Assembly: GCF_011682145.1 (NCBI RefSeq)
Contig: NZ_WHJH01000001.1
Coordinates: forward strand, 478,974 to 542,973
Reading direction: 5' to 3'
Source of the DNA: Massilia mucilaginosa
GTDB taxonomy: Bacteria > Pseudomonadota > Gammaproteobacteria > Burkholderiales > Burkholderiaceae_D
Length of the DNA stretch: 64,000 bases
The notes beneath the pieces were generated by a model. The model made no database searches, had not been told where the DNA came from, and saw only the letters and a list, made by a program, of their open reading frames with translations. A program made the position numbers and the translations under genes. Position 1 is the stretch's first letter, and each line of letters opens with the position of its first letter. Of the stretch, positions 30,124 to 49,307 are shown one piece after another.

Positions 30124-31332
30124 TCAGAGTGCGCAGGTGCGGAAGCCGCAAAAGATATCGTCGCGCTCCGGCTTGAAAAAATTGCGGAAGCGCGCCGACG
30201 CAAAGCGCGAGGGCGTGGCGAAGGACGCTCCCCGCAGCACCTGGTGCGTCATGAACCATGGCGCCGAATACTCGCGGTAGCGGTCCGCCACGAAGCCCGG
30301 ATACGGTTCGAACGCGCTGCTGGTCCACTCCCACAGCTGGCCCCAGCGGAACCCGGCCTGCCCCGACATCGCCGCATACTCCCACTCCGCCTCACCCGGC
30401 AAACGGCGCCCTGCCCACGCGCAATACGCCTGCGCCTCGAACAGGCACACATGGCGCACCGGCTCGGCCGGCGCCAGGGTTGACATGCGCCCGAAGCGCA
30501 TGCTGCGCCACTGGTCGCCGTCGCGCTGCCAGTAGCGCGGCGAGGAACGCTCCTGTCCCATCAGCCACGCGCTGCCGGCCGCGCTCCAGTACTGGCGGTT
30601 CTGGTAGCCGCCATCGGCGACAAAATCGGCGAACTGGGCATTCGTCACCAGGCCCGCATCGATGCGAAACGGCGCCACGTACACCGGGTGCGCCTGGCGC
30701 TCGTTATCGAACGCGAAGCCACCCTCCTGCACGCCGCCCAGCAGCAAGGTCCCGCCCGGATAGGCGATCTCGGACGAGGGCGCGGCCAGCAAGGACGCGC
30801 GCAGCAGCTGGTCCGGCACCTGCACGCCCAGGGTCTGCAAGGTGTACAGATAGGCCTCGCCGTGCATGTCTTCGTGCGCCAGCGCCAGCCGGTACGGATA
30901 CAATGCCTGATCGACGCCGGCCTCGCGCGAGAGCTTGTCGAGCGTGCGGTCGAGCACTTCATGGCAGTAGGTCTTGAGCGCGCCGGGGCTGGGCAGGTCG
31001 AGCGTCCAGCGCGAGCGGTGCGGCACGGTGTTCGAATCGAACCAGTCGTCGCCGCGCGTGAGCAGCGAATGGCGCTGGGCGTCGGCCGGGTGGCTCGATG
31101 CCGCCTCGCGCAGGATGAACCACTCGGCAAACCACGCCGTGTGCCCCAGTTCCCACAGCGGCGGATTGATGGTGGCGATGTGCGGCACGCGCGCCAGGCT
31201 GTCGTAGCCGGTGGCGGCGAAGCAGTCGAACAGGCCAAGCGTATAATTTCGGGCACCCTGGAGCGCCTCGGCCAGTTGCTGCCCCCTGGCGTGCCGGAAG
31301 GATGCCGGGATCGATGCGGTGGTTGAGTTCAT
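30124..31332 (-). CDS. senA: selenoneine synthase SenA (EgtB-like non-haem iron enzyme)
   Basis: 402 residues: an N-terminal DinB-like helical domain and a C-terminal formylglycine-enzyme-like (SUMF1) domain, the same layout as EgtB. Candidate iron ligands are H64 (LGHTAW) and H153/H157 (HEDMHGE). In the known selenoneine pathway SenA joins hercynine to a selenosugar oxidatively, leading to selenoneine. It is assigned as SenA, not a second EgtB, because it is divergent from senB and senC and differs clearly from the EgtB at 43.6 kb. Only 38 bp separate its start from that of senB. Confidence 0.88.
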   Translation of the reverse strand: MNSTTASIPASFRHARGQQLAEALQGARNYTLGLFDCFAATGYDSLARVPHIATINPPLWELGHTAWFAEWFILREAASSHPADAQRHSLLTRGDDWFDSNTVPHRSRWTLDLPSPGALKTYCHEVLDRTLDKLSREAGVDQALYPYRLALAHEDMHGEAYLYTLQTLGVQVPDQLLRASLLAAPSSEIAYPGGTLLLGGVQEGGFAFDNERQAHPVYVAPFRIDAGLVTNAQFADFVADGGYQNRQYWSAAGSAWLMGQERSSPRYWQRDGDQWRSMRFGRMSTLAPAEPVRHVCLFEAQAYCAWAGRRLPGEAEWEYAAMSGQAGFRWGQLWEWTSSAFEPYPGFVADRYREYSAPWFMTHQVLRGASFATPSRFASARFRNFFKPERDDIFCGFRTCAL

Positions 31333-31370
31333 GGCGTCGATTGTAACGACTTTTTCAAAGGCAGCGCTGC
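31333..31370. promoter_or_regulatory. very short divergent control region senA/senB
   Basis: Only 38 bp separate the ATG of senA from the GTG of senB. Two ordinary promoters cannot fit without lying inside the opposite coding region. No clear -10/-35 pair or operator was seen within the 38 bp. Confidence 0.4.
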
Positions 31371-32330
31371 GTGAAGAAACAGCTACTCATTGTCAGTCCC
31401 GCCTCGGCGAAGGAAAACAACGGCAACTGGCAGACCGCCCGCCGCTGGGCGCACTTCCTGCGCGCGCGCTACCGGGTCGCCATCGCCCCCGGATGGCAGC
31501 CGTCGGACGGCGCGCCCGACCTGCTCATCGCCCTGCACGCGCGCCGCTCGGCCGGGGCGCTGGCCGCGTATGCGCTGGCCTGCCCGCAGCGGCCCTCGGT
31601 GCTGGTGCTGACCGGGACCGACCTGTATCGCGACATTGCCACCTGCGCCGAGGCCCGGGCTTCGCTGCAGCACGCCAGCGCCCTGGTGCTGCTGCAAAGC
31701 GCCGGCCTGGCCCTGCTGCCGCCCGCCCTGCATGCGAAGACGCGCGTGATTTACCAGTCGGCGCCGGCGCTGGCGCCGCACCGCCACGCGCCCGCACGGC
31801 GCCATGCCGACATCTGCATGATCGGCCACCTGCGCGCCGAAAAAGATCCGCTGACCTTCATGCGCGCCAGCGCCCTGGTCACCAGCCCGCGCGCGCGCCT
31901 GCTGCACATCGGCGGCGCGCTCGATGCCGCGCTGGGCGAGGCGGCGCGCGCCACGGCGGCGGCCAATCCGCGCTACCGGTGGCTCGGCAACCTGGCGCAC
32001 GCCGAGGCGCGCCAGCGCCTCAAGCGCTGCCACGCGATGGTGATCGCCTCGCACATGGAAGGCGGCGCCAACGTCATCATCGAAGCCGTCACCAGCGCGG
32101 TGCCGGTGCTGGCCAGCGATATCAGCGGCAACCGCGGCATGCTGGGCGAGGACTACGCGGGCTATTTCGCGCCGGGCGACGCCCCCGCGCTGGCGCGCCT
32201 GATCGAGCGCTGCATCGGCGACGACGCCTTCCACGCACTGCTGCGGCGCCAGTGCGACGCGCGCGCCGCCTTGTTCGCCCCAAGCCATGAGCGCGCCAGT
32301 GTGCTCGACTTGGTGGATAATCTGGTCTGA
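31371..32330 (+). CDS. senB: selenosugar synthase SenB
   Basis: 319 residues of glycosyltransferase-B type: N-terminal IVSPASAKENNGNWQTARRW, then the donor-binding half with GHLRAEKDPLTF and ASHMEGGANVIIEAVTSAVPVLAS (E-x7-E region). In the characterised pathway SenB makes a C1 selenosugar from a UDP-sugar and selenophosphate. The start is a GTG. It is followed 29 bp later by senC. Recognition rests on the sequence type plus the senA/senC context. Confidence 0.87.
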   Translation: MKKQLLIVSPASAKENNGNWQTARRWAHFLRARYRVAIAPGWQPSDGAPDLLIALHARRSAGALAAYALACPQRPSVLVLTGTDLYRDIATCAEARASLQHASALVLLQSAGLALLPPALHAKTRVIYQSAPALAPHRHAPARRHADICMIGHLRAEKDPLTFMRASALVTSPRARLLHIGGALDAALGEAARATAAANPRYRWLGNLAHAEARQRLKRCHAMVIASHMEGGANVIIEAVTSAVPVLASDISGNRGMLGEDYAGYFAPGDAPALARLIERCIGDDAFHALLRRQCDARAALFAPSHERASVLDLVDNLV

Positions 32331-32359
32331 CCCGCCTTTTACCGAAATGGACACCGATC

Positions 32360-33418
32360 ATGAGCACTGCCCCAGACACCCCCATCAAACTCACCGCGTT
32401 TTCGCATGGCGGCGGCTGCGGCTGCAAAATCGCGCCCGGCGTGCTGTCCGAAATCCTGAAAAACTCGGGCGGCTTCCCGCTGCCGAAAGAACTGATGGTC
32501 GGTATCGAGACGGCCGACGACGCCGCCGTCTACAAGCTCAATGACGAACAGGCGCTGATCGCCACCACCGATTTCTTCATGCCGATCGTCGACGACCCGT
32601 TCGATTTCGGCCGCATCGCCGCCACCAACGCCATCTCCGACGTGTACGCGATGGGCGGGACGCCGATCATGGCGCTGGCGCTGGTCGGCATGCCGATCAA
32701 TAAACTGCCGCTCGAGACCATCGGCGAGATCATTCGCGGCGGCCAGGTCATGTGCGCCGAAGCGGGCATTCCGATCGCCGGCGGCCACACCATCGACTCG
32801 GTCGAACCGATCTACGGCCTGGTGGTGCTGGGCCTGGTGCATCCGTCCAAGGTCAAGCGCAACGCCGACGCGCGCGCCGGCGACGTGCTCATTCTCGGCA
32901 AACCGCTGGGCGTGGGCGTGCTCTCGGCGGCGCTCAAGAAAGACGTGCTGGGACCGGAAGGCTACGCCGCCATGATCGCCAATACCACCAAGCTCAATAA
33001 ACCGGGCAAGGCGCTCTCGGAGATGGAAGGGGTGCATGCGCTGACCGACGTCACCGGCTTTGGCCTCTTGGGCCACCTGCTGGAACTGGCGCGCGGGGCG
33101 CAACTGACGGCGCAACTGAGCATGTCGCAGATTCCGCTACTGCCGGGCGTGGAGCAACTGGCGCACGATGGCTACTTTACCGGCGCGTCGGGGCGCAACT
33201 GGGAGGCCTACGGCAAGGACGTGACGCTCTCGCCGAGCATCAGCGCGGCGCAGCATAACCTGCTGACCGACCCGCAAACCTCGGGCGGACTGCTGGTGTC
33301 GTGCGATCCTGGCAGCGTCGACGAGGTACTGGCGCTGTTCGCGCGCGAAGGCTTCGAGAGCGCCGCCGTGATCGGCGAGATGACGCAGGGCGCGCCGCGC
33401 GTCCAGGTCGCGGCGTAA
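32360..33418 (+). CDS. senC: selenide, water dikinase (SenC/SelD)
   Basis: 352 residues of the SelD family, which makes selenophosphate from selenide and ATP. The active-site loop HGGGCGCK places C20 and K23 at the positions of the essential Cys and Lys; the first position is Cys, not selenocysteine. The glycine-rich TDVTGFGLLGH and C-terminal DPQTSGGLL motifs are intact. Within this cluster it would feed SenB. No selA or selB lies in the window, so whether it also serves selenoproteins or selenouridine is not visible. Confidence 0.93.
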   Translation: MSTAPDTPIKLTAFSHGGGCGCKIAPGVLSEILKNSGGFPLPKELMVGIETADDAAVYKLNDEQALIATTDFFMPIVDDPFDFGRIAATNAISDVYAMGGTPIMALALVGMPINKLPLETIGEIIRGGQVMCAEAGIPIAGGHTIDSVEPIYGLVVLGLVHPSKVKRNADARAGDVLILGKPLGVGVLSAALKKDVLGPEGYAAMIANTTKLNKPGKALSEMEGVHALTDVTGFGLLGHLLELARGAQLTAQLSMSQIPLLPGVEQLAHDGYFTGASGRNWEAYGKDVTLSPSISAAQHNLLTDPQTSGGLLVSCDPGSVDEVLALFAREGFESAAVIGEMTQGAPRVQVAA

Positions 33419-33419
33419 G

Positions 33420-33444
33420 GCTGCCCGGGCGCGGCCCGGGCAGC
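33420..33444. terminator. hairpin between senC and the PEP-CTERM gene
   Basis: Perfect 10-bp arms GCTGCCCGGG and CCCGGGCAGC with a 5-nt loop, between two convergent stop codons. There is no T run on either side. Confidence 0.5.
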
Positions 33445-33455
33445 GGCGGGGCGCG

Positions 33456-34178
33456 TCAGACGGACTGGCGACGCTTGCGCGCTGCGAAGCCCAGCATGGC
33501 CAGGCCGGCGCCGAGCATGGCCCAGCTGCTTGGCTCGGGCACGGCCGTGACCGAGAACGACAGGTTGTCGGCGTAGCCATCGTTGTAGCTGCCCTCGGCC
33601 CGGTTCATGTCGAGCACGATGTCGACCAGCGCGCTGCCGACGGGAATGAAGCCATGGCTCTCGCGATATACCAGGTTGTTCAGTCCGCCACGATCGCTGA
33701 CGCTGACCGGCGCCAGGCTCTTGCTGAACAAGGTATTGCCGCTCTTGTCGCGGAACACGGCGGTCAGGGTGGCGCTATCGCTTTGCGTAGCGTAGCCGCC
33801 CAGCCAGCCGGACAGGTCGAACTGCGACTGTCCGCCCTTGATGGCGTCGCTGTAGCCGCCCAGGTCGATCACCTGGACCGCACGCGATGCCGGCGTGTTG
33901 ACGCCGCCAGCGAAAAAGTTCTTGCCGCGGTTTTGCGGACCGGCGTCGGCAGGCCCCGGGAAACCGCCGCTTGCGCCGTAGTTGACCGACGTCAGGCCAC
34001 CGCTGACAGTCCAGCCCGGCACCGTGACCGTGCCGCCATCGTTCGACCCTGCGCCGGCTTCGGCATTGCCGTTGACGATCAGGTTTTGACCGGACACGGC
34101 CGGGGCGGCATTCGCCGCTGCGGCGCAGGCGAACATGCCCGCCATCGATAAGGCCATTGCTGCTTTTACAAAACGCAT
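33456..34178 (-). CDS. PEP-CTERM sorting domain protein
   Basis: 240 residues: a signal peptide (MRFVKAAMALSMAGMFACAAAANA), a beta-rich body with N-x-NAEAG near the start, and a C-terminal sorting tail with VPEPSSWAML, a hydrophobic stretch and RKRRQ. Such proteins are processed by an exosortase and leave the cell, often with exopolysaccharide. No exosortase gene is in the window, so it must be encoded elsewhere. The function of the body is unknown. Confidence 0.88.
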   Translation of the reverse strand: MRFVKAAMALSMAGMFACAAAANAAPAVSGQNLIVNGNAEAGAGSNDGGTVTVPGWTVSGGLTSVNYGASGGFPGPADAGPQNRGKNFFAGGVNTPASRAVQVIDLGGYSDAIKGGQSQFDLSGWLGGYATQSDSATLTAVFRDKSGNTLFSKSLAPVSVSDRGGLNNLVYRESHGFIPVGSALVDIVLDMNRAEGSYNDGYADNLSFSVTAVPEPSSWAMLGAGLAMLGFAARKRRQSV

Positions 34179-34475
34179 GAAAATCCCTTGAATTGGTTGA
34201 AGCGCCGCCGTGCCAGCCCTCGCCCCCCCTGCGGCACATGGAGGGACGCCGGTAAATATAGTGCAATATTACAATATTTCCACACGAATTTATTCAATCG
34301 ACAAGCTATTTACTGCACCGCTAGCAACAAAAAGGCAATGCAATTCGCCAGGCGCGCGCTATGGAGGGCGAAATGCAACATTGGCAATTTAATTTGGGTA
34401 TGGTGCGCAGCCGTGGATGCGGGACGGGTATGATCGTTTGTACGTACCCACCTTGTGCAGCGACAGGAGAACATG
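34179..34475. promoter_or_regulatory. AT-rich divergent promoter region
   Basis: About 300 bp between the PEP-CTERM gene and the DUF1428 gene. The stretch 34250-34330 is much more AT-rich than the surroundings and contains AATATT-AC-AATATT (about 34264-34277). No gene is seen. The individual promoters could not be assigned with confidence. Confidence 0.4.
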
Positions 34476-34835
34476 ATGGCTTATGTCGATGGTTTCGTCC
34501 TTCCCCTCCCCACCAGCAATCTCGAAAGCTACCGCGCCATGGCGACCACCTGCGGCGCGATCTGGCGCGAACACGGCGCGCTGCAGTACCGCGAATGCAT
34601 CGCCGATGACGTCAAGCCCGGCAAACTGACCTCCTTTCCCCAAAGCGTCAACCTGCAGCCGGGCGAAACCGTGGTGTTTTCCTGGATCGTGTACGCATCG
34701 CGCGCCCACCGCGACGAAGTCAACGACAAGGTCATGAAAGACCCGCGCATGGCCGACTTCATGAAAGGCACCGACATGCCCTTCGACGGCAAGCGCATGA
34801 TCTACGGCGGCTTCGACATGTTTCTCGACCTGTAG
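34476..34835 (+). CDS. DUF1428 protein
   Basis: 119 residues matching DUF1428, a ferredoxin-like alpha/beta family of unknown function: MAYVDGFVLPLPTSNLESYR, FSWIVYASRAHRDEVN, and the C-terminal PFDGKRMIYGGFDMFLD. An AGGAGA site lies 5 bases before the ATG at 34476. The ATG at 34473 is also in frame but too close to that site. A single gene upstream of the leuA regulatory region. Confidence 0.88.
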   Translation: MAYVDGFVLPLPTSNLESYRAMATTCGAIWREHGALQYRECIADDVKPGKLTSFPQSVNLQPGETVVFSWIVYASRAHRDEVNDKVMKDPRMADFMKGTDMPFDGKRMIYGGFDMFLDL

Positions 34836-34882
34836 CATCGGCGGCCTGGCGGCGGCGGTTTGCACGCGTTGCACATCAGCGC

Positions 34883-34912
34883 TTGACAAGCCGGCGCGGC
34901 CTGACGTACAGT
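34883..34912 (+). promoter_or_regulatory. promoter of the leuA leader
   Basis: Perfect -35 TTGACA (34883-34888) and -10 TACAGT (34907-34912), 18 bp apart. Predicted transcription would begin near 34919, at or next to the ATG of the first leader peptide. Confidence 0.7.
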
Positions 34913-34918
34913 GAACTT

Positions 34919-35002
34919 ATGTCTTCCTCCCTGCATCTGTCGTCTTTCCCCCTGCTCGCTGGCGCGCTATCGCTAGCGACGCTACTAGCTGCACGCGCGT
35001 AA
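34919..35002 (+). CDS. leucine-rich leader peptide 1 (27 aa)
   Basis: MSSSLHLSSFPLLAGALSLA then TLLAARA. Eight of 27 residues are Leu. Four of these use CTA, a codon that is rare in this GC-rich DNA, and all four are clustered in the second half. It has no ribosome site; its ATG coincides with the expected transcript start, so it could be read as a leaderless message. Its place upstream of leuA suggests a sensor of charged leucyl-tRNA, but translation is unproven. Confidence 0.45.
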   Translation: MSSSLHLSSFPLLAGALSLATLLAARA

Positions 35003-35068
35003 TTACTCCGCAGTGCGCCGCCCGGCTCCCCGCCGGCGATGTTGTAAAACCCCAGGAAAGCTCGACCC

Positions 35069-35134
35069 ATGTTCGCATCCGTCTCCATCACGCAGTTCCT
35101 ACTGCTAAAGCTACCGATCGGTTGCCTGGCCTAG
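35069..35134 (+). CDS. leucine-rich leader peptide 2 (21 aa)
   Basis: MFASVSITQFLLLKLPIGCL plus Ala. The core LLLKL uses CTA-CTG-CTA-AAG-CTA. AGGAAAG lies about 8 bases before the ATG, a good ribosome site. The stop is 78 bp before leuA. Together with the promoter upstream, this looks like a leucine attenuator or a translational control leader. No hairpin followed by a T run was seen, so control may act on leuA translation or through Rho. Confidence 0.6.
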   Translation: MFASVSITQFLLLKLPIGCLA

Positions 35135-35212
35135 CGAATCCGTGGCCGCCCGGCAGCCTGTCGCCACACCGCCGCCCGGCCCTTATCCGCTTTCGCCAAA
35201 CAGGAGTACCCC

Positions 35213-36898
35213 ATGATGTTGCAGAATCCGTCGTCCAAATACCGCGCCTTCCCTCCAGTCAATTTGTCCGCCCGCCAGTGGCCGGATAAGGCCATCACCC
35301 GTCCGCCGATCTGGATGAGCACCGACCTGCGCGACGGCAACCAGGCTCTGATCGAGCCGATGAGCCCGGAGAAAAAACTGCGTTTCTTCGAGATGCTGGT
35401 CAAGATCGGCCTCAAGGAAATCGAAGTCGGTTTTCCGTCCGCCTCCCAGACCGACTTCGATTTCGTGCGCAAGCTGATCGATGAAGACCGCATTCCCGAG
35501 GACGTGACCATCATCGTGCTGACCCAGTCGCGCGAAGAACTGATCCGCCGCACGGTCGACTCCGCCGTGGGCGCGCGCCGTGCCATCGTGCACTTGTATA
35601 ACTCGGTGGCGCCGGTGTTCCGCAAGGTCGTGTTCGGCATGACGCGCGAGCAGATCACCGGGATCGCCGTCAGCGGCACCAAGCTGGTCAAGGAACTGGT
35701 CAAGCAGCATCCGCAGACCGACTGGGGCTTCGAATACACGCCGGAATCGTTTTCGACCACGGAACTCGATTTCTCCAAGCACATCTGCGACGCCGTCAGC
35801 GATATCTGGCAGCCGACTCCGCACAACAAGATGATCGTCAACCTGCCTTCCACCGTGGAATGCAGCACGCCGAACGTGTACGCGGACCAGATCGAGTGGA
35901 TGTCGCGCAAGCTGGCGCGGCGCGATTCGCTGATCATCAGCGTCCATCCGCACAACGACCGCGGCACGGCGGTGGCATCGGCCGAGCTGGCCATCATGGC
36001 GGGCGCCGACCGGGTCGAAGGCTGCCTGTTCGGCAACGGCGAGCGCACCGGCAATGTCGACCTGGTCACCCTGGCGATGAATCTGTACACCCAGGGCGTG
36101 CATCCGGGACTCGATTTCTCCGATATCGATGCCGTGCGCCAGGTGGTGGAAGAATGCAACCAGTTGCCGGTGCATCCGCGTCATCCGTATGCGGGCGATC
36201 TGGTGTTCACCGCATTCTCCGGTTCGCATCAGGATGCGATCAAGAAAGGCTTTGCCCAGCAAAAGCCGAATACCTTGTGGGAAGTGCCATATTTGCCGAT
36301 CGATCCGGCCGATATGGGGCGCAATTACGACGCGGTGATTCGCGTCAACAGCCAGTCCGGCAAGGGCGGGATGGCGTATCTGCTGGAACAGGAATTCGGC
36401 TTGAGCCTGCCGCGCCGCTTGCAGATCGAGTTCAGCCGGGCGGTACAGGCGGTGGCCGACGCCAGCGGACGCGAGATTGCGGCCAAGGAAATTCATGCCA
36501 TCTTCTGCAGCGAGTATTTTGACCAGGCCAGCCCGTACGCCTACAGCGCGCACAAGATGGTGGAAGACAGCAGCAGCGACGAGCCGGTGCAGATCGATAT
36601 CACCCTGGCGCACCGCCAGGCCAGCCTGAGTTTGCAGGGTGGCGGCAACGGGCCGATCGACGCCTTCGTCAACGCGCTGGGGCTCGATATCAAGCTGATG
36701 GATTACCACGAGCACGCGATCGGCTCGGGTGCGAATGCCAAGGCGGCGTGTTATGTGGAATTGCGCCTGGAGAATGGTCCGACCATGTTCGGCGCGGGGA
36801 TCGACAGCAATATCGTGACGGCCTCGTTCAAGGCGGTGCTCAGTGCGGTGAACCGCCAGTTGCTGCGGGCGGAGAAAGAGCTGGCGGTAGCGGGCTAA
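35213..36898 (+). CDS. leuA: 2-isopropylmalate synthase
   Basis: 561 residues, LeuA type 2 length. It condenses 2-oxoisovalerate and acetyl-CoA, the first committed step of leucine synthesis. The catalytic domain has the metal motif [11 protein letters not shown] near 45 and [11 protein letters not shown] near 245; the C-terminal regulatory domain (from about 440) binds leucine for feedback inhibition. A CAGGAG site precedes the tandem ATGATG start. The gene stands apart from leuBCD, under the leader described above. Confidence 0.95.
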
Positions 36899-36904
36899 AC
36901 CGGT

Positions 36905-36936
36905 CGCCGTCCCCGCCCATCGGCGCGGGGACGGCG
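36905..36936. terminator. bidirectional hairpin between leuA and the AAA gene
   Basis: Perfect 12-bp arms CGCCGTCCCCGC and GCGGGGACGGCG with an 8-nt loop, between convergent stop codons. No T run. Confidence 0.6.
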
Positions 36937-36941
36937 CAAGA

Positions 36942-38174
36942 TCAAATGAACTTGGTCTTCTTCAAGTACTTTTCCACATCGCGATAACTGTCATCGCTGC
37001 CCGCGTAGCGCACCAGATTGCGCGCCGTTTTCAGCCACTCCACGGTGGACGGCTGCATTGCATCGAGCGCGTACGCAATATCGCCCGGCCCGATCGGCCG
37101 CTCCGGATTGCCCGCCAAAATATCGTGAATCGCGCTCTCCTTGGCCAGGTCGATCACGCCATCGATATCCGCGCCTGAAAAATGCGGTGTCGCCGCCACC
37201 AGCGCATCGACATCCACGCCTTCCACCGGCACTTCGCGCAGCTTGATGTTGATGATGTGCTTGCGCGCTTCGGCGTCCGGCGGCGGCACGAACAGCTGGC
37301 GCGCAAAGCGCCCGGTGCGTTTCATCGCCTGGTCCACATCCCACGGCATATTGGTCGCCGCCAGGAACAGCACGTCGCGGTTGTCGCGCTCGAAACCGTC
37401 GAGCTGCGACAGGAACTCATTCACGATAGTGCGGCTGTGCTCGCTCTGCGCCTTGGAACGCGAAAACGCCAGCGCATCGAGCTCGTCGAAAAACAGCACG
37501 CACGGCTTTTGCGCGCGCGCCTTTTCGAACAGTTGCGCCAGGTTGCGCTCGCTCTCGCCCATCCACATATTCAACACTTCGCTGATGCCGACCGACACGA
37601 ACGAGGCATTGCACTCGTTCGCAATGGCGCGCGCGATCATGGTCTTGCCGCAGCCCGGCGGGCCGTACAGCAAAATCCCGCCGCCGCCCTGCTTCTTGAA
37701 CTTGGCAAACAGCGAGGGACGCAAAAACGGCTCGATGATGTGCAGGCGCAGCATCTTCTTCAAGTCTTCCATCCCGCCCACGTCGGCAAAGCGCACCGCG
37801 TCCGGCGCTTGCGGCTTGAGCGGCACCACATTGGCGGCCTGCCCCACCAGCGACAGCGCCGGACCCGAGGCCGGACGCGCACTCTGCTGCAACTGTTCCA
37901 GCGCCGGCACCGGCACGAAGCCATCCTGCTGGCGCGCGCGGCCGTAGGCGGCCAGCGCATCGCTGTTGCTGCCAAGCGCCAGCAGCGCCTGCGCCTTGCC
38001 GCTCGAGGCGGCCGCCCCCGGCGACTGCCGTTCGGCCAGCTCGAACTGCACCAGCGCGGCGCCGGCATCGTGTTCGTCGAGCAGCAGGCGGGCGTAGGCG
38101 AGCCGGTTGGCAGTGTTGAACGGATCGCTTACCAGCGACGCTTCATATTGTTCACGCGACATAGTCATGGTCAT
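36942..38174 (-). CDS. AAA ATPase with N-terminal TPR-like region
   Basis: 410 residues. Residues about 10-90 form TPR-like helices (ANRLAYARLLLDEHDAGAAL). Residues 130-400 are one AAA module: Walker A GPPGCGKT (171-178), Walker B FFDELDAL near 235, sensor 1 AATN, arginine finger region RTGRFARQ. The AAA module resembles the Cdc48/FtsH type that remodels proteins. AGGA precedes the ATG at 38174, which overlaps the stop of the membrane TPR gene by 1 bp. Last gene of a three-gene operon. Confidence 0.8.
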   Translation of the reverse strand: MTMTMSREQYEASLVSDPFNTANRLAYARLLLDEHDAGAALVQFELAERQSPGAAASSGKAQALLALGSNSDALAAYGRARQQDGFVPVPALEQLQQSARPASGPALSLVGQAANVVPLKPQAPDAVRFADVGGMEDLKKMLRLHIIEPFLRPSLFAKFKKQGGGGILLYGPPGCGKTMIARAIANECNASFVSVGISEVLNMWMGESERNLAQLFEKARAQKPCVLFFDELDALAFSRSKAQSEHSRTIVNEFLSQLDGFERDNRDVLFLAATNMPWDVDQAMKRTGRFARQLFVPPPDAEARKHIINIKLREVPVEGVDVDALVAATPHFSGADIDGVIDLAKESAIHDILAGNPERPIGPGDIAYALDAMQPSTVEWLKTARNLVRYAGSDDSYRDVEKYLKKTKFI

Positions 38175-39528: not shown

Positions 39529-39641
39529 GGCGTGTTGTATGAAGTAAATAAAAAATGATGACGCGACATGGTGGCGCGAAACCGAATCCGCATCATACGC
39601 AAGTTTCGCGCCGCCTTCCAGTTAGTTGGCCGATGCGGGCG

Positions 39642-40322: not shown

Positions 40323-40432
40323 GGGCGCCCTCCTCTGTCGTTACAGCCAATGTACCATTTTCGAGGAGAACTTCCTGTCTGCGGGGCGCGCGCTGTTGTA
40401 TTGGCGGGCCTGGGCGCGAGCGGATTTGGAGG

Positions 40433-41697: not shown

Positions 41698-42225
41698 ATG
41701 CCAGACTATTCCAGCAAGTCCGAACTGCAAGCCGCAGTCACCCGCGCACTGGGCCGGCGCAGCGGCAGCGAGACCCTCAAAGCCATCGCTTACTGGAAAG
41801 AAACCGGCACCTTCTGGGCACTCAAGCAAGACGGTTTCCTGAGCGAACAGGAGATGGCGTCGCTGCGCAAGGAACTGGGAACGGCGCAGGTGTATCACGC
41901 CTGGCTGAGCACCTGCGACATCGACTGGACCGCCGCCACCGGGCTGCGTGCCCGCATGGTCGGCGTATCGGCGCATCTGAACAAGATGACGCCGCCGGCC
42001 GACTGGAGCGGCCTGACGGCGGCCGCCAATTGCGACTGCAGTATCGACTGCGCGTTTGAAATGGAGCGCGTGCCCGTTGACGATCCCGTCAGCGACACCC
42101 GGGCGGTGCAGGCGGCCTGGTGGACCTTCATGAGCGACATTCCGTTCGAACAGTTCGACCTGCCGATCCAGAATGCCAACCCGCTGTTCGGCTTGACGCA
42201 GGGACGGGCGACCTACTCCGCCTGA
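41698..42225 (+). CDS. hypothetical protein
   Basis: 175 residues, soluble, no signal peptide. An N-terminal helical half (LGRRSGSETLKAIAYWKETG, LKQDGFLSEQEMASLRKELG) is followed by a part with a CDCSIDC cluster near 120 and several Trp residues. An ideal ribosome site (GGAGGAAG) precedes the ATG, so it is very probably expressed. No family was recognised. Confidence 0.6.
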   Translation: MPDYSSKSELQAAVTRALGRRSGSETLKAIAYWKETGTFWALKQDGFLSEQEMASLRKELGTAQVYHAWLSTCDIDWTAATGLRARMVGVSAHLNKMTPPADWSGLTAAANCDCSIDCAFEMERVPVDDPVSDTRAVQAAWWTFMSDIPFEQFDLPIQNANPLFGLTQGRATYSA

Positions 42226-42407
42226 ACCCGGGAAAAGCCGGGGCACGCGGGGAAGCGCTCCTGGTCGAGCACGTGTCCTCAGCCTGGAGCACCCGGCTTG
42301 CTCCGCTATGCCAGCACCAACGATCAATTTCACAGATCGCCCGCATAGCGCATCGAGGCACAGTGACGGTTGCCGCGATCCCTGAAGAAGAACCGAAAAC
42401 CCGGACG

Positions 42408-42431
42408 AAAAAAAAGCCCGCCGAAGCGAGC
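42408..42431 (-). terminator. intrinsic terminator (minus strand)
   Basis: On the minus strand, GCTCGC-TTCG-GCGGGC followed by eight T. It ends the candidate small RNA and possibly the egtD-egtB-yihY operon. Confidence 0.85.
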
Positions 42432-42631
42432 TCTAATCCAATGTATTACCAATGCTTTAATCGTGTCCCAGGCGCCCATGCTATCTGCGTGGTGCCCTGA
42501 CGTGTAAATCGACTACCGTATTCGGAATTACAAATCCAGGCGGTTGCGACCTTCTACCTTTGCGACATTACACATATTGCGCGGCGGTGCAGGCTCCGGA
42601 TAGGGTTTCGGTTCGTTTGAACCTCACCACT
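42408..42631 (-). ncRNA. candidate small RNA with own promoter and terminator
   Basis: About 224 nt with no convincing ORF. On the minus strand an extended -10 (TGCTACACT, hexamer at 42638-42643) and -35-like TTGCTG (42662-42667) are 18 bp apart. The predicted RNA starts near 42631, has a 5' hairpin GGTTC-AAAC-GAACC (42610-42623) and ends in a strong intrinsic terminator. A 15-codon frame (MCNVAKVEGRNRLDL) lies inside but has no ribosome site. It could instead be the tail of the egtD-egtB-yihY transcript. I cannot assign an RNA family. Confidence 0.5.
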
Positions 42632-42637
42632 GAACGC

Positions 42638-42667
42638 AGTGTAGCACAGGATTGTGCGATGCAGCAA
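42638..42667 (-). promoter_or_regulatory. promoter of the candidate small RNA
   Basis: -10 TACACT with an upstream TG (extended -10) and -35 TTGCTG, spacing 18, on the minus strand just past the yihY stop. Confidence 0.55.
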
Positions 42668-42673
42668 ACTCTA

Positions 42674-42717
42674 TCGCATCATTTCGCATCATTTCGCATC
42701 ATTTCGCATCATTTCGC
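42674..42717 (-). repeat. 10-bp tandem repeat at the yihY stop codon
   Basis: Unit ATTTCGCATC (plus strand), about 4.4 copies. On the minus strand the yihY stop TGA falls inside the first copy, so the array is essentially 3' untranslated. Confidence 0.9.
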
Positions 42718-43644
42718 CGGCCGGGTCGTCATCGGTATCGGTTCCTTGTGCTGCTCGTTGCGCCCCGCCCGCTCGTATTCCGAAATCACCTGCGCGCCGA
42801 ACAGCAGTAAAGTTGCCCCGATCTCCAGGCTGAACATGACCACGATCGCGGTCGTCATCGACCCATACACCATGTTCACCTGCGACAAGGTCGAAAAGTA
42901 CCAGACCAGCACATGGCGCGCGATTTCCCACAGCAGCGCCGCCGTCACCCCGCCAATGAGCGCGTGCGACAGCGACAACCGCCCGACCGGCATCACCAGG
43001 TAGATGGAACTGAGCACCAGGATTTCCCCGCTCAGCCCCAGGCAGTACAGCAGCACGCCCGACACGCCGCCGAGCGACCATTCGTAGCCGAGGAAGTGCA
43101 CGCTCTCCTCGCCCATCACCTGCAAGGTGCCCGCCACCAGGGTGACGATCATGATGCCGGCGCCAAGCGCCAGGATATAACAGTAAGGCAGGATCGCCGA
43201 GATCAGGAAGCGCCTGCGCCGGATCGCCACCCGGTGATGGAAGATCACGCTCATCGCGTTTTCCAGCGCGGTGAACGCCAGCGAGCTGAAAAACAGCATG
43301 CTGGCAAACAGCACCCAGGTCACCAGGTCGCGGTCTTCCATGAAATGCGCCAGTTCGCCCACGATGGCTTTCGACTGCCCCGGCACCAGCCACTCCAGAT
43401 AACGCCCCAGGGTGGACAGCAACTCGGCCTGGTCGATGAAGTGCGACAGCGCCACCACCACCAGCATCAGGAACGGCACGATCGACAGCAGCGCGTAATA
43501 GGCCACCGCGCCGGCCAGCAGCAAGCCCTGGTTGGCCTTGAAGCCCTTGAGCGTCTGCCACGTGAATTCGAGCGGATGGGCCAGCACGTAGGCGTTCGCG
43601 CGGCGGTTCAGAATACGCAGGCGCAGCCCTTTCGACACCTTCAT
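42709..43644 (-). CDS. YihY/BrkB family inner-membrane protein
   Basis: 311 residues with six likely membrane segments and the YihY signatures GAVAYYALLSIVPFL near 45 and the late FYFSTLSQVNMVYGSM-type segment (WYFSTLSQVNMVYGSMTTAI). The family is often mislabelled RNase BN; its function is unsettled. The start overlaps the egtB stop by 4 bp, making it the third gene of an egtD-egtB-yihY operon. Its stop lies in a 10-bp tandem repeat. Confidence 0.87.
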   Translation of the reverse strand: MKVSKGLRLRILNRRANAYVLAHPLEFTWQTLKGFKANQGLLLAGAVAYYALLSIVPFLMLVVVALSHFIDQAELLSTLGRYLEWLVPGQSKAIVGELAHFMEDRDLVTWVLFASMLFFSSLAFTALENAMSVIFHHRVAIRRRRFLISAILPYCYILALGAGIMIVTLVAGTLQVMGEESVHFLGYEWSLGGVSGVLLYCLGLSGEILVLSSIYLVMPVGRLSLSHALIGGVTAALLWEIARHVLVWYFSTLSQVNMVYGSMTTAIVVMFSLEIGATLLLFGAQVISEYERAGRNEQHKEPIPMTTRPAK

Positions 43645-44852
43645 CGGGCCAGCCTGACGCCGGTGAACTGCCAGCGCGCCCCGGCCGGGAAGAAATTGCG
43701 GTAGCTGGCGCGCGCGTGGCCCGGCGGCGTGGCGCACGAGGAGCCGCGCAGCACATACTGGTTGAGCATGAATTTGCCGTTGTATTCGCCCAGCGCGCCG
43801 GGCGCGCAGGCGTAGCCCGGATACGGCGCGTAGCTGCTGCTGGTCCACTGCCAGCACTCGCCGAACATCTGCTGCAAGCCCTCGCCCTGCGGCGCGCAAG
43901 CCGGATGCAGGCCGCCCGTGGCCGTGCCGCTGCCGGCGCAAGCGACTTCCCACTCCGCCTCGGTCGGCAGGCGCGCGTCCATCCAGTGCGCAAAGGCGTC
44001 GGCTTCATACAGCGACAAGTGCGTGGCCGGCCGCGCCGCATCGAGCGGCTGCAAGCCATGCAGGGTAAATTCGTGCCACTGCCCGTGCGCGTCGCGCTGC
44101 CAGTACAGCGGGTGCGCCAGTTTCAGCTCGCACACACGGTCCCAGCCCTCGGACAACCACAGCGCCGGCTCGCGGTAGCCGCCGGCCTCGATGAAGGCCA
44201 GGTACTCGCCATTGGTGACCAGGCGCGACGCCAGCGCGAACGGCGCCACATACTGGCGGTGGCGCGGAAGTTCGTTATCGAAGCAAAAGCCGGTAGCCGC
44301 ATGCCCGATATCGGCCAGGCCGCCGTCAAAAGCGATCCACGCCAGCGGCGCGGCCGACGGCGCCCTTGGCAGCGCGCTATCCATGTAGGCCGGCCACATG
44401 GCGTTCTGCGCCAGCATGTGCTTCACATCGGTGAGGATCAGTTCCTGGTGCTGCTGCTCGTGCTGCAAACCGAGTGCCAGGAGGTGCAGCAGGTCGTCGC
44501 CCGGCTGCGCCGCCAGCAAGCGCGCCACGCGCGCATCCACATTGGCGCGGTAGGCGCGCACCTCGCGCATGGCGGGGCGCGTCAGCAAGGAGCGCTGGGC
44601 GCGCGGATGGCGTTCGCCGATGCCGTTGTAATAGGAGTTGAACAGCACCCGGAAGGCCGGATGAAACGGCGCGAAGCCTTCTTCGAAGCGCTCCAGTACA
44701 AACGTCTCGAAAAACCAGGTGGTATGCGCCAGGTGCCATTTGACCGGGCTGGCGTCCGGCATCGACTGCGCGCCGCAGTCTTCGTCCGAGAGCGGCTCGG
44801 CCAGCATCAGCGAGCGTTTGCGCACGCCGTCGTAAAGGTCGCGCATGCTCAT
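43641..44852 (-). CDS. egtB: ergothioneine biosynthesis iron enzyme EgtB
   Basis: 403 residues. EgtB couples hercynine to a thiol (gamma-glutamylcysteine or cysteine) with O2, giving the sulfoxide precursor of ergothioneine. The DinB-like N-terminal domain carries the likely iron ligands H43 (LAHTTW), H131 and H135 (HEQQHQE). The FGE-type domain follows, with RLPTEAEWEVA and FGECWQWTSSSYAPYPG. Start ATG 44852 overlaps egtD by 4 bp. No egtA, egtC or egtE is visible, so thiol donor and C-S lyase must come from elsewhere. Confidence 0.92.
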   Translation of the reverse strand: MSMRDLYDGVRKRSLMLAEPLSDEDCGAQSMPDASPVKWHLAHTTWFFETFVLERFEEGFAPFHPAFRVLFNSYYNGIGERHPRAQRSLLTRPAMREVRAYRANVDARVARLLAAQPGDDLLHLLALGLQHEQQHQELILTDVKHMLAQNAMWPAYMDSALPRAPSAAPLAWIAFDGGLADIGHAATGFCFDNELPRHRQYVAPFALASRLVTNGEYLAFIEAGGYREPALWLSEGWDRVCELKLAHPLYWQRDAHGQWHEFTLHGLQPLDAARPATHLSLYEADAFAHWMDARLPTEAEWEVACAGSGTATGGLHPACAPQGEGLQQMFGECWQWTSSSYAPYPGYACAPGALGEYNGKFMLNQYVLRGSSCATPPGHARASYRNFFPAGARWQFTGVRLAR

Positions 44853-45814
44853 CGCGGTATGGCACGCGCGTAAATGACGGCGAACCACTGATCGGGATCG
44901 GTCCACACATGCACGCTGCGAAATCCACCCTGCTCGAGCAAGCCGACCGCCGCGCTCTGACGGTACTTGTAGCTGTTCTCGGTATGAATCCGCTCGCCCG
45001 CCGCAAACAAGCGCTCGCCGCCCGGCCAGCGCACGGTGAGCGCTTCGCGCGCTTCCAGGTGCATCTCGACCCGGCTCTCGTCGCGATTGAAAAAGCCGCG
45101 GTGGCGCCACTGCGCCACGTTGAAATCGGCGCCCATCAGCTGGTTCACATGGCGCAGGATGTTCAGGTTGAAGGCCGCCGTGACGCCGATGGCGTCGTCG
45201 TAGGCGGCGTCCAGCGTGGCGGAGTCCTTCACCAGGTCGATCCCGATCAGCAGCGCGCCGTCGTCGTCGCACTGGCCGCGCAGACGGCCCAGGAAAGCGC
45301 GCGCCTGCTCCGGCGTGTAGTTGCCGATCGACGAACCGGGATACAGGAACAGCCGCTTTTCGGTGCGCACCACCCCCGGCAATTCGAGCCGCTCCGAAAA
45401 ATCGAGCCCCAGCCCGGTCATCTCGATATGCGGAAAACGCTGCTGCAGCCGTTCGATCGACTCGCGCAGGAAATCGTACGAGATGTCGATAGCCACATAC
45501 TGGGCCGGATGCAGCAGCGGGAACAGGCGCGCCGCCTTCACGCAACTGCCCGCTCCCAGGTCGATCAGGGTGGCGCCGGGACCGGCCGCGCGCGCGATTT
45601 CGGCACCGTGGCGCACCGCGATGGCCGCTTCGGTGCGGGTCGGATAGTATTCGGGCAGCTCGCAAATGGCCTCGAACAGGCGCGAGCCGAGCGCGTCGTA
45701 GAGGAATTTGGGCGAAATCGCCGCCTCGCGGCCGAGCAGGCCGGCACGCAGTTCGGAAGCGATGGCGGCGCTGGGGCGCTCGTCGCGCGCGTCGGGCTGG
45801 CTGGAGGTCGGCAT
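44849..45814 (-). CDS. egtD: L-histidine N-alpha-methyltransferase EgtD
   Basis: 321 residues, the usual EgtD length. It trimethylates histidine with SAM to hercynine, the shared precursor of ergothioneine and selenoneine. Seen: CELPEYYPTRTE near 55 (histidine site), SAM loop LIDLGAGSCVKA near 85, YVAIDISYDFL, LYPGSSIGNYTPEQA, and a C-terminal FNRDESRVEMHLEA. Start ATG 45814 is chosen for family length; ATGs at 45844 and 45862 are in frame, but the latter lies in the likely -10 box. It is divergent from the ABC importer. Confidence 0.94.
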   Translation of the reverse strand: MPTSSQPDARDERPSAAIASELRAGLLGREAAISPKFLYDALGSRLFEAICELPEYYPTRTEAAIAVRHGAEIARAAGPGATLIDLGAGSCVKAARLFPLLHPAQYVAIDISYDFLRESIERLQQRFPHIEMTGLGLDFSERLELPGVVRTEKRLFLYPGSSIGNYTPEQARAFLGRLRGQCDDDGALLIGIDLVKDSATLDAAYDDAIGVTAAFNLNILRHVNQLMGADFNVAQWRHRGFFNRDESRVEMHLEAREALTVRWPGGERLFAAGERIHTENSYKYRQSAAVGLLEQGGFRSVHVWTDPDQWFAVIYARAIPR

Positions 45815-45951
45815 AGTTTTATTGGTCAATCGAAATCGCTGCATGGGTGTTTTTGTTATCATAGCTGAATATCCCGTATTTCACGGTCTGCCCGGCGTTC
45901 AAGCGTGCTCGCTTGCCGGCTCCCCCATCGACCTTCCCAGGACAGGCAACC
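45815..45951. promoter_or_regulatory. divergent promoter region egtD / ABC importer
   Basis: 137 bp. On the minus strand a -10 TATGAT (45858-45863) fits transcription starting near 45851, giving a leader of about 37 nt to the egtD ATG at 45814. The -35 is poor. No operator palindrome was recognised. Sharing this region would allow joint control of hercynine synthesis and import. Confidence 0.45.
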
Positions 45952-46839
45952 ATGACCATTTTCTCCACCCGGCGCACCCTCAACACCATGCTGGCTGCAT
46001 CAATCGGCGCCACCCTGCTGCTGGCCGGCGCCAGCGCGATCGCCCAGGTCACCCCGGGCGTGCTGCGCGTGTCGGCCATTCCCGACGAAGCGCCGACCGA
46101 ATTGCAGCGCAAGTTCAAGCCGCTGGGCGACTACCTGGCCAAGGCCACCGGCCTGAAAGTCGAATTCACCCCGGTTACCGATTATCCGGCCGCCGTCGAA
46201 GGCCTGGTCAACAAGCGCCTCGACCTGGTCTGGTTCGGCGGCTTTACCTTCGTGCAGGCCAATGTGCGCAGCAAGGGCCAGGTCACGCCGCTGGTGCAGC
46301 GCCAGGAAGATACCGCCTTCCGCTCGGTGTTCGTCACCACCAAGGCCGACATCAACAAGCTCGAAGACCTCAAGGGCAAGACCTTGAGCTTCGGTTCCGA
46401 GTCGTCCACCTCGGGCCACCTGATGCCGCGTTCTTACCTGCTGGCCGCCAGGATCGATCCGGACGCCGACCTCAAACGCGTGGCCTACTCCGGCGCGCAC
46501 GACGCCACCGTGGCCGCTGTCGCCGGCGGCAAGGTCGATGCGGGCGCACTCAATATCTCGGTCTGGGAAAAACTGGTCGCCGAGAAGAAGGTCGATGCGG
46601 CCGCCGTGCGCGTGTTCTACACCACCCCGGGCTACTTCGACTACAACTGGACCGTGCGTTCCGACATGCCGGCCGCGATGAAGAAGAAGCTGACCGACGC
46701 CTTCCTCGCGCTCGACAAGTCCACCCCGGAAGGCAAGGAAATCCTGGAACTGCAAAAAGCGACCAAGTTCGTGCCGACCACGCCCGACAATTACAAGTCG
46801 ATCGAAGCGGCCGCGCGCAGCGCCAAGCTGCTCAAGTAA
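45952..46839 (+). CDS. PhnD-like periplasmic binding protein, putative selenium oxyanion transporter
   Basis: 295 residues: signal peptide (to about ASAIAQ, 32), then a PhnD-type periplasmic fold: VSAIPDEAPTELQRKFKPLG, DLVWFGGFTFVQA, FGSESSTSGHLMPRSYLL. This sequence type is usually named putative selenate ABC transporter binding protein, an assignment made from genomic context, not from binding data. An AGGACAGG site precedes the ATG at 45952. It is followed by ATPase and two permease genes, and is divergent from egtD. Phosphonate or phosphite cannot be excluded as ligand. Confidence 0.78.
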   Translation: MTIFSTRRTLNTMLAASIGATLLLAGASAIAQVTPGVLRVSAIPDEAPTELQRKFKPLGDYLAKATGLKVEFTPVTDYPAAVEGLVNKRLDLVWFGGFTFVQANVRSKGQVTPLVQRQEDTAFRSVFVTTKADINKLEDLKGKTLSFGSESSTSGHLMPRSYLLAARIDPDADLKRVAYSGAHDATVAAVAGGKVDAGALNISVWEKLVAEKKVDAAAVRVFYTTPGYFDYNWTVRSDMPAAMKKKLTDAFLALDKSTPEGKEILELQKATKFVPTTPDNYKSIEAAARSAKLLK

Positions 46840-46868
46840 GCGACCTGGCAAGCGAAAGCGGCGCGCGC

Positions 46869-47684
46869 ATGACCACCTACCGGCTCGAACAACTCACCGT
46901 GCATCACCAGGCCGGCGCGCGCGCGCCGGCCCTGCGCGAGATCGACCTGGTGGTGGCGCAGGGCGAGCAGCTGGCCGTGATCGGCCCTTCGGGTGCCGGC
47001 AAGACCACCTTGCTGCACACCCTGGCCTGCGCCCACGCGCCGGCCGGCGGTTTGTTCCAGGCCTTCGGCCGGGAGCCGTGGGCCTTGAGCGGCAAGGCGC
47101 GCCACGCCTTGCGCGCCAAGCTGTTCCTGGCGCCGCAAACGCCGCCCCTGCCGCCGCGCCAGCGCGTGGTCAGCGCGGTGCTGGCGGCGCGCCTGCCGCA
47201 CTGGAGCCTGTCCCAGGCCCTGTCCTCCCTGTTCAAGCCAGTCGATCCGGATGCCGCCTACGATGCGCTGGCCCGCTTCGGCCTTGGCGACAAACTGTAT
47301 GCGCGGGTCGACCGCCTGTCGGGCGGCGAGCGCCAGCGCTGCGGCCTGGCGCGCCTGCTGCTGTCGTCGGCCAAGGTGTTCCTGGTCGACGAGCCGCTCT
47401 CCGCGCTAGACCCGGCCCTGTCGCAACTGACCCTGTCGGCCCTGCAGCGGGAAGCGGCCAGCCGCAACGCCACCCTGATCTGCAGCCTGCACCAGGTGGA
47501 GATGGCGCGCGCCAATTTTGACCGCATCGTCGGCCTGCGCGACGGCCGCATCGTCTTCGATTGCGCGCGCGACGACGTCAGCGACGCCATGATCGCCGCC
47601 CTGTACCAGAACGAAGCGGTCGCGCCGCATCCGGCGCAAGCGCACGAGACACCGGAGCGCCTGGCCATCGGCGCCTGCTTCTAA
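46869..47684 (+). CDS. ABC transporter ATP-binding protein (PhnC-like)
   Basis: 271 residues with the full ABC ATPase set: Walker A GPSGAGKTT near 40, signature LSGGERQRCG, Walker B VFLVDEPLSALD, H-loop CSLHQVE. It powers import by the adjacent permeases. It starts 29 bp after the binding-protein stop; the first permease starts 4 bp after its own stop. Resembles PhnC. Confidence 0.88.
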   Translation: MTTYRLEQLTVHHQAGARAPALREIDLVVAQGEQLAVIGPSGAGKTTLLHTLACAHAPAGGLFQAFGREPWALSGKARHALRAKLFLAPQTPPLPPRQRVVSAVLAARLPHWSLSQALSSLFKPVDPDAAYDALARFGLGDKLYARVDRLSGGERQRCGLARLLLSSAKVFLVDEPLSALDPALSQLTLSALQREAASRNATLICSLHQVEMARANFDRIVGLRDGRIVFDCARDDVSDAMIAALYQNEAVAPHPAQAHETPERLAIGACF

Positions 47685-47688
47685 GCGC

Positions 47689-48519
47689 ATGCCCGTGTCC
47701 CTCCAACGGCATCCGGACCCGGCATGGCGCGCGCGCGTGGCCATGCTCGCCATCGGCGCCGCGCTGCTGTGGCCCGCCATGGTGTTCAGCGAATTCAAGC
47801 CCTGGATCCTGTTCGACCTGCAAAGCCTGAAGGCAGCCGGCGAGTTCCTGGTTGGCTTCCTCACGCCGGCGCATTCGCCTGAGTTCTTGTGGATGGTGCT
47901 GCGCGAAACCTGGCAAACGGTGGCCATCGCCACCGCCGGCCTGACCCTGGCGCTGCTCGGCGCCATCCCCGCCACCCTGATCGTCACCGAGCGCCTGTCG
48001 GTATCGCGCCTGGGCAGCGGGCGCATGCACTGGGCCGCCGGCCTGCTGCGCCAGGTAGTGCGCTGGGTGCTGGTGCTGCTGCGCAGCGTGCCCGAACTGG
48101 TCTGGGCGATCCTGTTCGTGCGCGTGGTGGGCCTGGGCCCGACCGCCGGCGTGCTGGCAATCGCCCTGACCTATTGCGGCATGCTGGGCAAGGTGTACGC
48201 CGAAATCCTCGAATCGTCCGACGCCCACGCCACCGAAACGCTGCTGGCCAACGGCGCCTCGCGCCTGTCCGCGCTGCTGTACGGCGCGCTGCCCGATTCC
48301 AGCGCCGAACTGGTCTCGTACACGGTCTACCGCTGGGAGTGCGCCATCCGCGGTTCGGCGGTGATCGGTTTTGTGGGCGCCGGCGGACTCGGTCAGCGCA
48401 TGGATGAATCGACCCGCATGATGGCCGGCGGCGAAGTGTGCACCATGCTGATCATGTTCGTGCTGCTGGTGGCGGTGGCCGATGCGGTCTCCAGGATGCT
48501 GCGCCGGAGGCTCGGATGA
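47689..48519 (+). CDS. ABC transporter permease 1 (PhnE-like)
   Basis: 276 residues with about six membrane segments and the ATPase-contact EAA-type loop (ATETLLANGASRLSALLYGALP) near 185-206, as in phosphonate-type permeases. The C-terminal GFVGAGGLGQ is family-typical. It overlaps the second permease by 4 bp and probably forms a heterodimer with it. Confidence 0.86.
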   Translation: MPVSLQRHPDPAWRARVAMLAIGAALLWPAMVFSEFKPWILFDLQSLKAAGEFLVGFLTPAHSPEFLWMVLRETWQTVAIATAGLTLALLGAIPATLIVTERLSVSRLGSGRMHWAAGLLRQVVRWVLVLLRSVPELVWAILFVRVVGLGPTAGVLAIALTYCGMLGKVYAEILESSDAHATETLLANGASRLSALLYGALPDSSAELVSYTVYRWECAIRGSAVIGFVGAGGLGQRMDESTRMMAGGEVCTMLIMFVLLVAVADAVSRMLRRRLG

Positions 48520-49307
48520 CGCGCCGCCTGCCCGCCGCGCCGCCGCGCCAGTTCTCGACCTGGCTGCTGGGCGCGGGCCTGGTGGCGCTGGTGGTGGCCA
48601 GCTTCGCCTCGCTGCCGCTGCAATGGTCGGCCTTTTTCTCGCCCGACGCGGCCACGGTGACGATGGAATTCCTGGCCGGCTTCGCCCCGCCCGAGACCGC
48701 GCCGGCCTTTTTGCGCAAGACTGCGCTGGCCGCGCTGGAGACGCTGTCGATGTCGGCCATCGGCACCCTGCTGGCGGTGGGCGGCGGCCTGGCGCTGTCG
48801 CTGCCGGCCTCCGGGCGCGTCAAGCGCGTGCAGCGCATCGTTGCGCGCGCCGTGCTTAACGTGCTGCGCTCGATCCCGGAACTGGTGTGGGCCTCGCTGC
48901 TGCTGGTGGCCGCCGGCCTGGGTCCGTTCGCCGGCACCCTGGCGCTGGCCGCGCATACCAGCGGCGTGCTCGGACGCCTGTTCGCCGACGCGCTCGAAAA
49001 CACCGACCCGCACCCGCAACGCTCGCTGGTCGCCAACGGCGCCTCGCCGGGCGCCGCGTTCTGCTACGCCACCCTGCCGCAAACGCTGCCCCAGATGCTG
49101 TCGTATACCTTGTACCGCTGGGAGAACAATATCCGCGCCGCCGCCGTGCTGGGCGTGGTCGGCGCCGGCGGCCTTGGCCAGATGCTCAAATTTCACCTGT
49201 CGCTGTTCCAGATGCAAAGCGCGGCCACCGTCATCATCGCCATGCTGCTGCTGGTGGCGCTGGTCGACGCGGCCAGCTTCGCACTGCGCCGCGCCATAAC
49301 CCGCTAA
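48516..49307 (+). CDS. ABC transporter permease 2 (PhnE-like)
   Basis: 263 residues, paralogous to permease 1: RSIPELVWASLLLVAAGLGP matches RSVPELVWAILFVRVVGLGP of the first, and the EAA-type loop reads PQRSLVANGASPGAAFCYATLP. The end GVVGAGGLGQML is alike. A perfect GGAGG lies 5 bases before the ATG at 48516, which overlaps the previous stop. The longer open frame upstream is not permease-like. Confidence 0.86.
   Translation: MTRRLPAAPPRQFSTWLLGAGLVALVVASFASLPLQWSAFFSPDAATVTMEFLAGFAPPETAPAFLRKTALAALETLSMSAIGTLLAVGGGLALSLPASGRVKRVQRIVARAVLNVLRSIPELVWASLLLVAAGLGPFAGTLALAAHTSGVLGRLFADALENTDPHPQRSLVANGASPGAAFCYATLPQTLPQMLSYTLYRWENNIRAAAVLGVVGAGGLGQMLKFHLSLFQMQSAATVIIAMLLLVALVDAASFALRRAITR

Follow-up and report, generated by a model that had tools for sequence, protein, structure and literature searches.

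How does a bacterium equipped to make selenoneine bring selenium into the cell? The question is raised by a 64,000-nucleotide stretch of Massilia mucilaginosa DNA (NZ_WHJH01000001.1, positions 478,974 to 542,973; hereafter the window), where genes for selenoneine (senA, senB, senC), genes for hercynine and ergothioneine (egtD, egtB) and a PhnD/PhnE-like ATP-binding cassette (ABC) importer lie between positions 30,124 and 49,307. As stated in the available portions of two reviews, from 2026 (PMC13188914) and 2022 (PMC9312934), prokaryotes have no known high-affinity transport system specific for selenium. On balance, we lean towards the view that the importer, composed of a TIGR04553 substrate-binding protein (SBP), a PhnC-like ATPase and two PhnE-like permeases, is a dedicated high-affinity selenite importer of Pseudomonadota. 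It would derive from a PhnD1-like phosphate/phosphite importer, with the ligand contacts unchanged, and would be a cassette plugged into sen, selU-selD or hercynine genes. We regard as probable the broader reading that the window holds a conserved neighbourhood in which an importer, likely for selenite, accompanies a senABC selenoneine route and an EgtB ergothioneine route with hercynine in common. The importer is the new part; senABC (PMC9814287) and EgtB/EgtD (PMC9814287; the available portion of PMC10891094) are already known kinds. No publication describing the TIGR04553 importer or this neighbourhood was found in a literature search that was judged from listings, with most subscription journals outside its scope. 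The available portion of the 2022 review names an ABC transporter-related ATPase as a predicted companion of a SelD-only trait; it may correspond to the ATPase of the window importer (PMC9312934). The locus and its relatives offer a concrete, testable candidate for the missing bacterial selenium importer, for which a substrate is predicted and whose role could be read out genetically in two ways, through selenoneine and selenouridine.

Genes were called with NCBIfam models against their curated cut-offs (scores in bits); the identities of the genes, their conserved order, their co-occurrence and the residues of the binding pocket are direct observations. The four importer genes lie on the forward strand, divergent from egtD across an 89-bp gap (45863..45951, from the gene positions). 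The SBP gene (45952..46839) scored 397 with TIGR04553 (cut-off 250), and its most likely start is the ATG at 45952, judged by eye from a signal-peptide-like N-terminus. It is followed by the PhnC-like ATPase (46869..47684; TIGR02315, 182 bits, below the cut-off of 266), permease 1 (47689..48519; TIGR01097, 187 bits, below 217) and permease 2 (48438..49307; 238 bits versus 217), an open frame whose true start may lie downstream. The SBP over its cut-off, with the ATPase and both permeases after it on the same strand, makes this a TIGR04553 importer. It falls outside the curated PhnCDE families, since the SBP (173 bits with PhnD TIGR03431, cut-off 261), the ATPase and the first permease stay below their cut-offs and only the second permease exceeds its own. 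The SBP is 92% identical to its Massilia antarctica homologue. Among the genomes sampled (116 of the family and 348 of the phylum), TIGR04553 behaved as a discrete family, present in 33 of the 348 phylum genomes, with the lowest member at 326 bits and the next protein at 171. In NCBIfam it is a hypothetical equivalog named putative selenate ABC transporter substrate-binding protein, the name being a database prediction. In one genome (G095) the SBP gene (G095:C1:5762231-5763006) was reported as two pieces with one TGA inside, and another (G335, locus L097) carries two consecutive SBP genes.

The presence of the importer was associated with that of selenophosphate synthetase. SelD over its cut-off was found in 29 of the 33 TIGR04553 phylum genomes versus 99 of 348 overall (P = 8e-14), and in all 61 family genomes with the importer versus 103 of 116 overall (P = 2.6e-5), both P values being uncorrected for kinship. 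In G424, G185 and G248 an open frame close to the SBP, 762-767 residues long, contains a SelD-like stretch of 217-232 bits, below the cut-off. Adjacency points the same way. In 54 of the 61 family genomes the importer has its start no more than 5 kb from SelD or EgtD (in 32, from EgtD), and of the 32 phylum importers beyond the window, 13 lie within about 7 kb of a sen, sel or egtD gene. The neighbours were SelD and SelU at L088 and L091-L094, and SenC and SenB at L067, L069 and L071, while L090 has the order SenA-SenC-SBP-ATPase-permeases-EgtD-SenB in about 7.6 kb. Co-occurrence with SelD and this repeated adjacency to sen, sel and egtD genes favour the selenium role that the preliminary description of the window had suggested for the importer. 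We also observed that in five genomes (G424, G185, G248, G273 and G441; loci L070, L067, L071, L069 and L068, respectively) the SelD-like stretch close to the SBP and SenB belongs to open frames of 762-816 residues, which may encode a fusion protein.

The substrate was approached through the best solved relatives of the SBP, the PhnD1 proteins of Synechococcus and Prochlorococcus (7s6g, 193 bits; 5lq5, 165 bits). According to the available portion of the PhnD1 paper (PMC10284923), phosphate is held by Tyr44, Ser124, Thr125, Ser126, His156, Asp203 and the capping Tyr204; hypophosphite binding was not measurable, and binding seems to call for three trigonal oxygens. The same portion reports binding of phosphate, phosphite and methylphosphonate by PhnD1, whereas we predict a selenium oxyanion for the window importer; no word beginning with “selen” occurs in the main text of that paper. 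All seven contact residues are identical in the aligned window protein. Across 56 aligned TIGR04553 sequences, Tyr44, Ser124, Thr125, Ser126 and His156 were present in 56/56, Tyr204 in 55/56 and Asp203 in 51/56. In selenite the three oxygens form a pyramid. Because the contacts equal those of PhnD1, with its apparent need for three trigonal oxygens, and selenite resembles phosphite, we predict an oxyanion with three oxygens as the ligand, which favours selenite over selenate. Such a pocket fits the participation of phosphate transporters in selenite uptake, stated in the available portions of both reviews (PMC9312934, PMC13188914). The structure model of the SBP was poor (mean predicted local distance difference test score, pLDDT, of 53) and was left out of all comparisons.

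Several observations weigh against the proposal of a selenite importer. The pocket is of the phosphate/phosphite type and alone cannot separate selenium from phosphorus, and the database name of the family says selenate, not the selenite predicted here. In one genome (G252) the importer occurs without any SelD. In 7 of the 61 family genomes the importer starts more than 5 kb from both SelD and EgtD, and 19 of the 32 phylum importers outside the window are without a nearby sen, sel or egtD gene. Moreover, the importer follows SelD and not the sen genes: 29 of the 44 sen genomes carry it, as do 32 of the 72 others. It is thus not required for selenoneine everywhere.

The alternative that survives best, although we consider it unlikely, is that the importer belongs with the PhnDCE-type transporters of phosphite, phosphonate or phosphate and that its adjacency to selenium genes is incidental. 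Such a transporter would explain the retention of every PhnD1 phosphate contact, and the Pfam and JGI names of the protein are indeed phosphonate-binding. Nevertheless, the scores place the SBP well below the PhnD cut-off and well above that of TIGR04553, the co-occurrence with SelD is strong, and no phosphonate or phosphite gene was found at the ten of the 19 unlinked loci at which one neighbour each was scanned (two of the ten neighbours matched no family). That the importer instead salvages an organic compound of the pathway (ergothioneine, hercynine or selenoneine) is very improbable, as the frequent closeness to EgtD is set against a pocket that matches the small-oxyanion type closed by a capping tyrosine (available portion of PMC10284923), two genomes with the importer and no EgtD match (G058, G094), and the adjacency to selD-selU in other lineages.

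The selenium genes beside which this candidate selenite importer lies were identified as follows. The enzyme encoded at 30 kb (senA, selenoneine synthase; 30124..31332, reverse strand) scored 532 bits on the SenA model NF041186 (cut-off 420) and 294 on that of EgtB (cut-off 360), whereas the enzyme at 44 kb showed the reverse pattern (380 on SenA, 551 on EgtB). In a tree of 29 SenA and 15 EgtB rows, with one solved chain in each group, the two groups split with support 100/100 and the 30-kb enzyme fell with SenA; its nearest solved chains are the selenoneine synthases 8ryz and 8k5i. This is the comparison by which the preliminary description proposed that its assignment as SenA could be overturned; the assignment held, and an identity as EgtB was ruled out by the model scores and the tree. 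On the forward strand, senB (selenosugar synthase; 31371..32330) scored 400 bits with TIGR04348 (cut-off 300) and senC (a SelD; selenophosphate synthetase; 32360..33418) scored 546 with NF002098 (cut-off 299). We placed the senB start at 31371; the frame from 31319 gave no match. Window SenB matched the solved chains 8k5u and 8fbx, and its catalytic Lys158 is invariant in 18 aligned SenB sequences. The SenB motif reads EGGANV in the window and in 18 of 21 relatives, and is given as EGGAHV in the available portion of PMC10891094. The divergence of senA from senB-senC at 30.1-33.4 kb was also borne out, with all three over their cut-offs; the 38-bp gap between senA and senB (31333..31370, from the gene positions) is the putative site of both promoters. 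A SenA set apart from EgtB, a SenB with Lys158 and a selenophosphate synthetase in the same cluster define a SenABC locus. It resembles senABC of Variovorax paradoxus, as described in PMC9814287, in the family models matched by SenA, SenB and SenC, with senA divergent from senB-senC in the window; unlike that cluster, the window also has egtB-egtD and a TIGR04553-family importer in the neighbourhood.

The ergothioneine genes lie on the reverse strand, divergent from the importer as the preliminary description had it (43.6-49.3 kb), with egtB, egtD and the SBP over their cut-offs. The histidine Nα-methyltransferase gene egtD, for hercynine (44849..45862), scored 371 bits with TIGR03438 (cut-off 290.9). 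The sulfoxide synthase gene egtB (about 43641..44852) scored 551 bits with TIGR03440 (cut-off 360); it is the 3′ portion of a longer open frame, its start being chosen by inference. With the chosen starts, egtB and egtD overlap by 4 bases at the egtD stop, an operon-like arrangement. Compared with solved chains, window EgtB scored 434 bits over nearly its whole length with the type II EgtB of Chloracidobacterium thermophilum (6o6l, 6qki, 8qf6), and 129 with Mycobacterium EgtB. EgtD and EgtB over their cut-offs, the latter closest to type II, make up an ergothioneine gene pair. Since its nearest relative is the type II Chloracidobacterium enzyme, window EgtB likely uses cysteine directly, a reading drawn from kinship to that enzyme alone.

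How regularly do these modules travel together? Within the family, senA and senB lay within 5 kb of each other in 44 of 116 genomes. Family-search counts are lower bounds; the search missed senA of G084, which is included in the 44 after being added by hand. We had considered G084 as a genome without senA and rejected this, as its senA frame is intact with a short in-frame insert. Of the 44, 31 had egtD no more than 60 kb from senB, a count uncorrected for shared ancestry, and one had it 1.9 Mb away; in the remaining 12 it was not on the same contig, G078 among them having EgtD below the cut-off. The sen-egt linkage is more than chance. A second set, the named sen loci, consisted of the best 80 of 565 relatives with flanks of up to 10 kb per side; within these flanks, EgtD was present in 31, the SBP in 27 and either in 38, while restricting the set to the 56 loci that span 18 kb or more gave 24, 23 and 30, respectively. 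About half of the named loci had neither within reach. The arrangements differ: egtD divergent from the SBP in Massilia, Duganella, Rugamonas and Glaciimonas; senB-(senC)-SBP in Cupriavidus, Paraburkholderia and Noviherbaspirillum; senA followed by the SBP in Rubrivivax and Roseateles; and senC adjoining EgtD in Sulfuritalea and Rhodocyclaceae. Because the association persists across these differing arrangements, it speaks for a functional link over shared ancestry.

The modules are separable, which weighs against the overall reading: ten family genomes have SenA over its cut-off without SenB over its own, and G088 has SenB-SenC without SenA (a second search there gave EgtB only). The ten are G005, G024, G034, G043, G064, G073, G082, G090, G097 and G111; in G090 and G073, senA retains its place between the DEAD helicase gene and egtB. 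Seven SenA copies from these ten genomes (L189-L193, L197 and L198) fall within the SenA group of the tree. We also noted Massilia/Telluria loci with senB-senC and no senA in the flanks (L018, from G088, and L110, L111, L112, L116, L118, L119, L121 and L155).

The wider neighbourhood was compared among relatives, as the preliminary description had proposed. The genome of 7.70 Mb that carries the window, on contig C111, has its nearest named relatives in Massilia; the top SenB of the named scan comes from Massilia atriviolacea (89%). The order MltD-DEAD helicase-senA|senB-senC-YihY-egtB-egtD|SBP-permeases recurs in all six members of the family sample that belong to the same genus (G009, G047, G067, G084, G099 and G113), divided over two contigs in G099 and with LeuA interposed in some. 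Other genera of the family keep most of this order, with losses: senA is missing in G088 and both senA and senB in G114 and G037, and senA is elsewhere in G051 and G071. In the window, unrelated genes for a PEP-CTERM protein, LeuA, an AAA ATPase, a TPR protein, an HAD hydrolase and YihY stand between sen and egt, the AAA, TPR and HAD genes occupying the wide gap. The leuA gene (35213..36898, forward strand), a marker of the conserved neighbourhood, has the same place in several, not all, relatives, and the YihY-family membrane protein (42709..43593, reverse strand; TIGR00765, 86 bits versus 73) is a conserved neighbour of egtB with the same place in relatives.

These results bear on the suggestion in the preliminary description that the entire 19 kb is a transferable selenometabolite region, which did not hold up. 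Compactness speaks for it, with the modules lying within 19 kb here and nearly contiguous in L090, as does the absence of the importer cassette between EgtD and the next ATPase gene in six loci (L131, L136, L191, L195, L196 and L198), so that movement or loss of the cassette as a whole is possible. Nevertheless, unrelated genes are interleaved, the order and site are shared by the six same-genus relatives, and the identities of SenA, SenB, EgtB, EgtD and the SBP to the window proteins track that of MltD (r 0.80-0.99 over six relatives). The window has no tRNA and no Rfam match, and no integrase or transposase was named over its cut-off among the open reading frames scanned, which were not all of those in the window. 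The shared order largely refutes a mobile selenium region, which we rejected and now hold to be highly improbable. Neither chance nor a mobile island accounts for the layout; since the identities run parallel to MltD divergence, the pattern speaks for inheritance, and independent movement or loss seems confined to the importer cassette. The gene after the importer, for a LolD/FtsE-like ATPase (49339-49995), stays next to EgtD in the six loci where the importer is absent.

What would the neighbourhood do as a whole? The importer substrate and direction, the products and the flux are predicted from the genes. The SBP-PhnC-PhnE1-PhnE2 importer would bring in a selenium oxyanion, most likely selenite. 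Cell thiols reduce selenite to selenide, and would do so here. If selenite is the substrate, the missing reductase gene at the locus may be explained, because thiols can reduce it without a dedicated gene. SenC would then convert selenide to selenophosphate, SenB would put the selenium onto a sugar, and SenA would couple the selenosugar to hercynine, giving selenoneine. EgtD would supply the hercynine, from which type II-like EgtB would also make ergothioneine. The earlier proposal that the sen and egt genes are built around one hercynine source is supported by this predicted scheme, which would make it possible to study the sulfur-or-selenium choice in a single cell. The genome has a single SelD match, which is senC, and one SelU, on another contig; SelA was not found in it by the family search. 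With one SelD, one SelU and no SelA, SenC is predicted to feed both selenoneine and, through the unlinked SelU, tRNA 2-selenouridine, and selenocysteine synthesis appears to be absent.

Two minor features remain to be described. Between the DEAD helicase gene and senA (28179-30123), the window encodes a universal stress protein and a permease that is weakly GntP-like (17 bits); each was present in 0 of the 80 named sen loci. A possible regulatory motif common to the 38-bp and 89-bp divergent gaps was also noticed, as a by-eye impression only.

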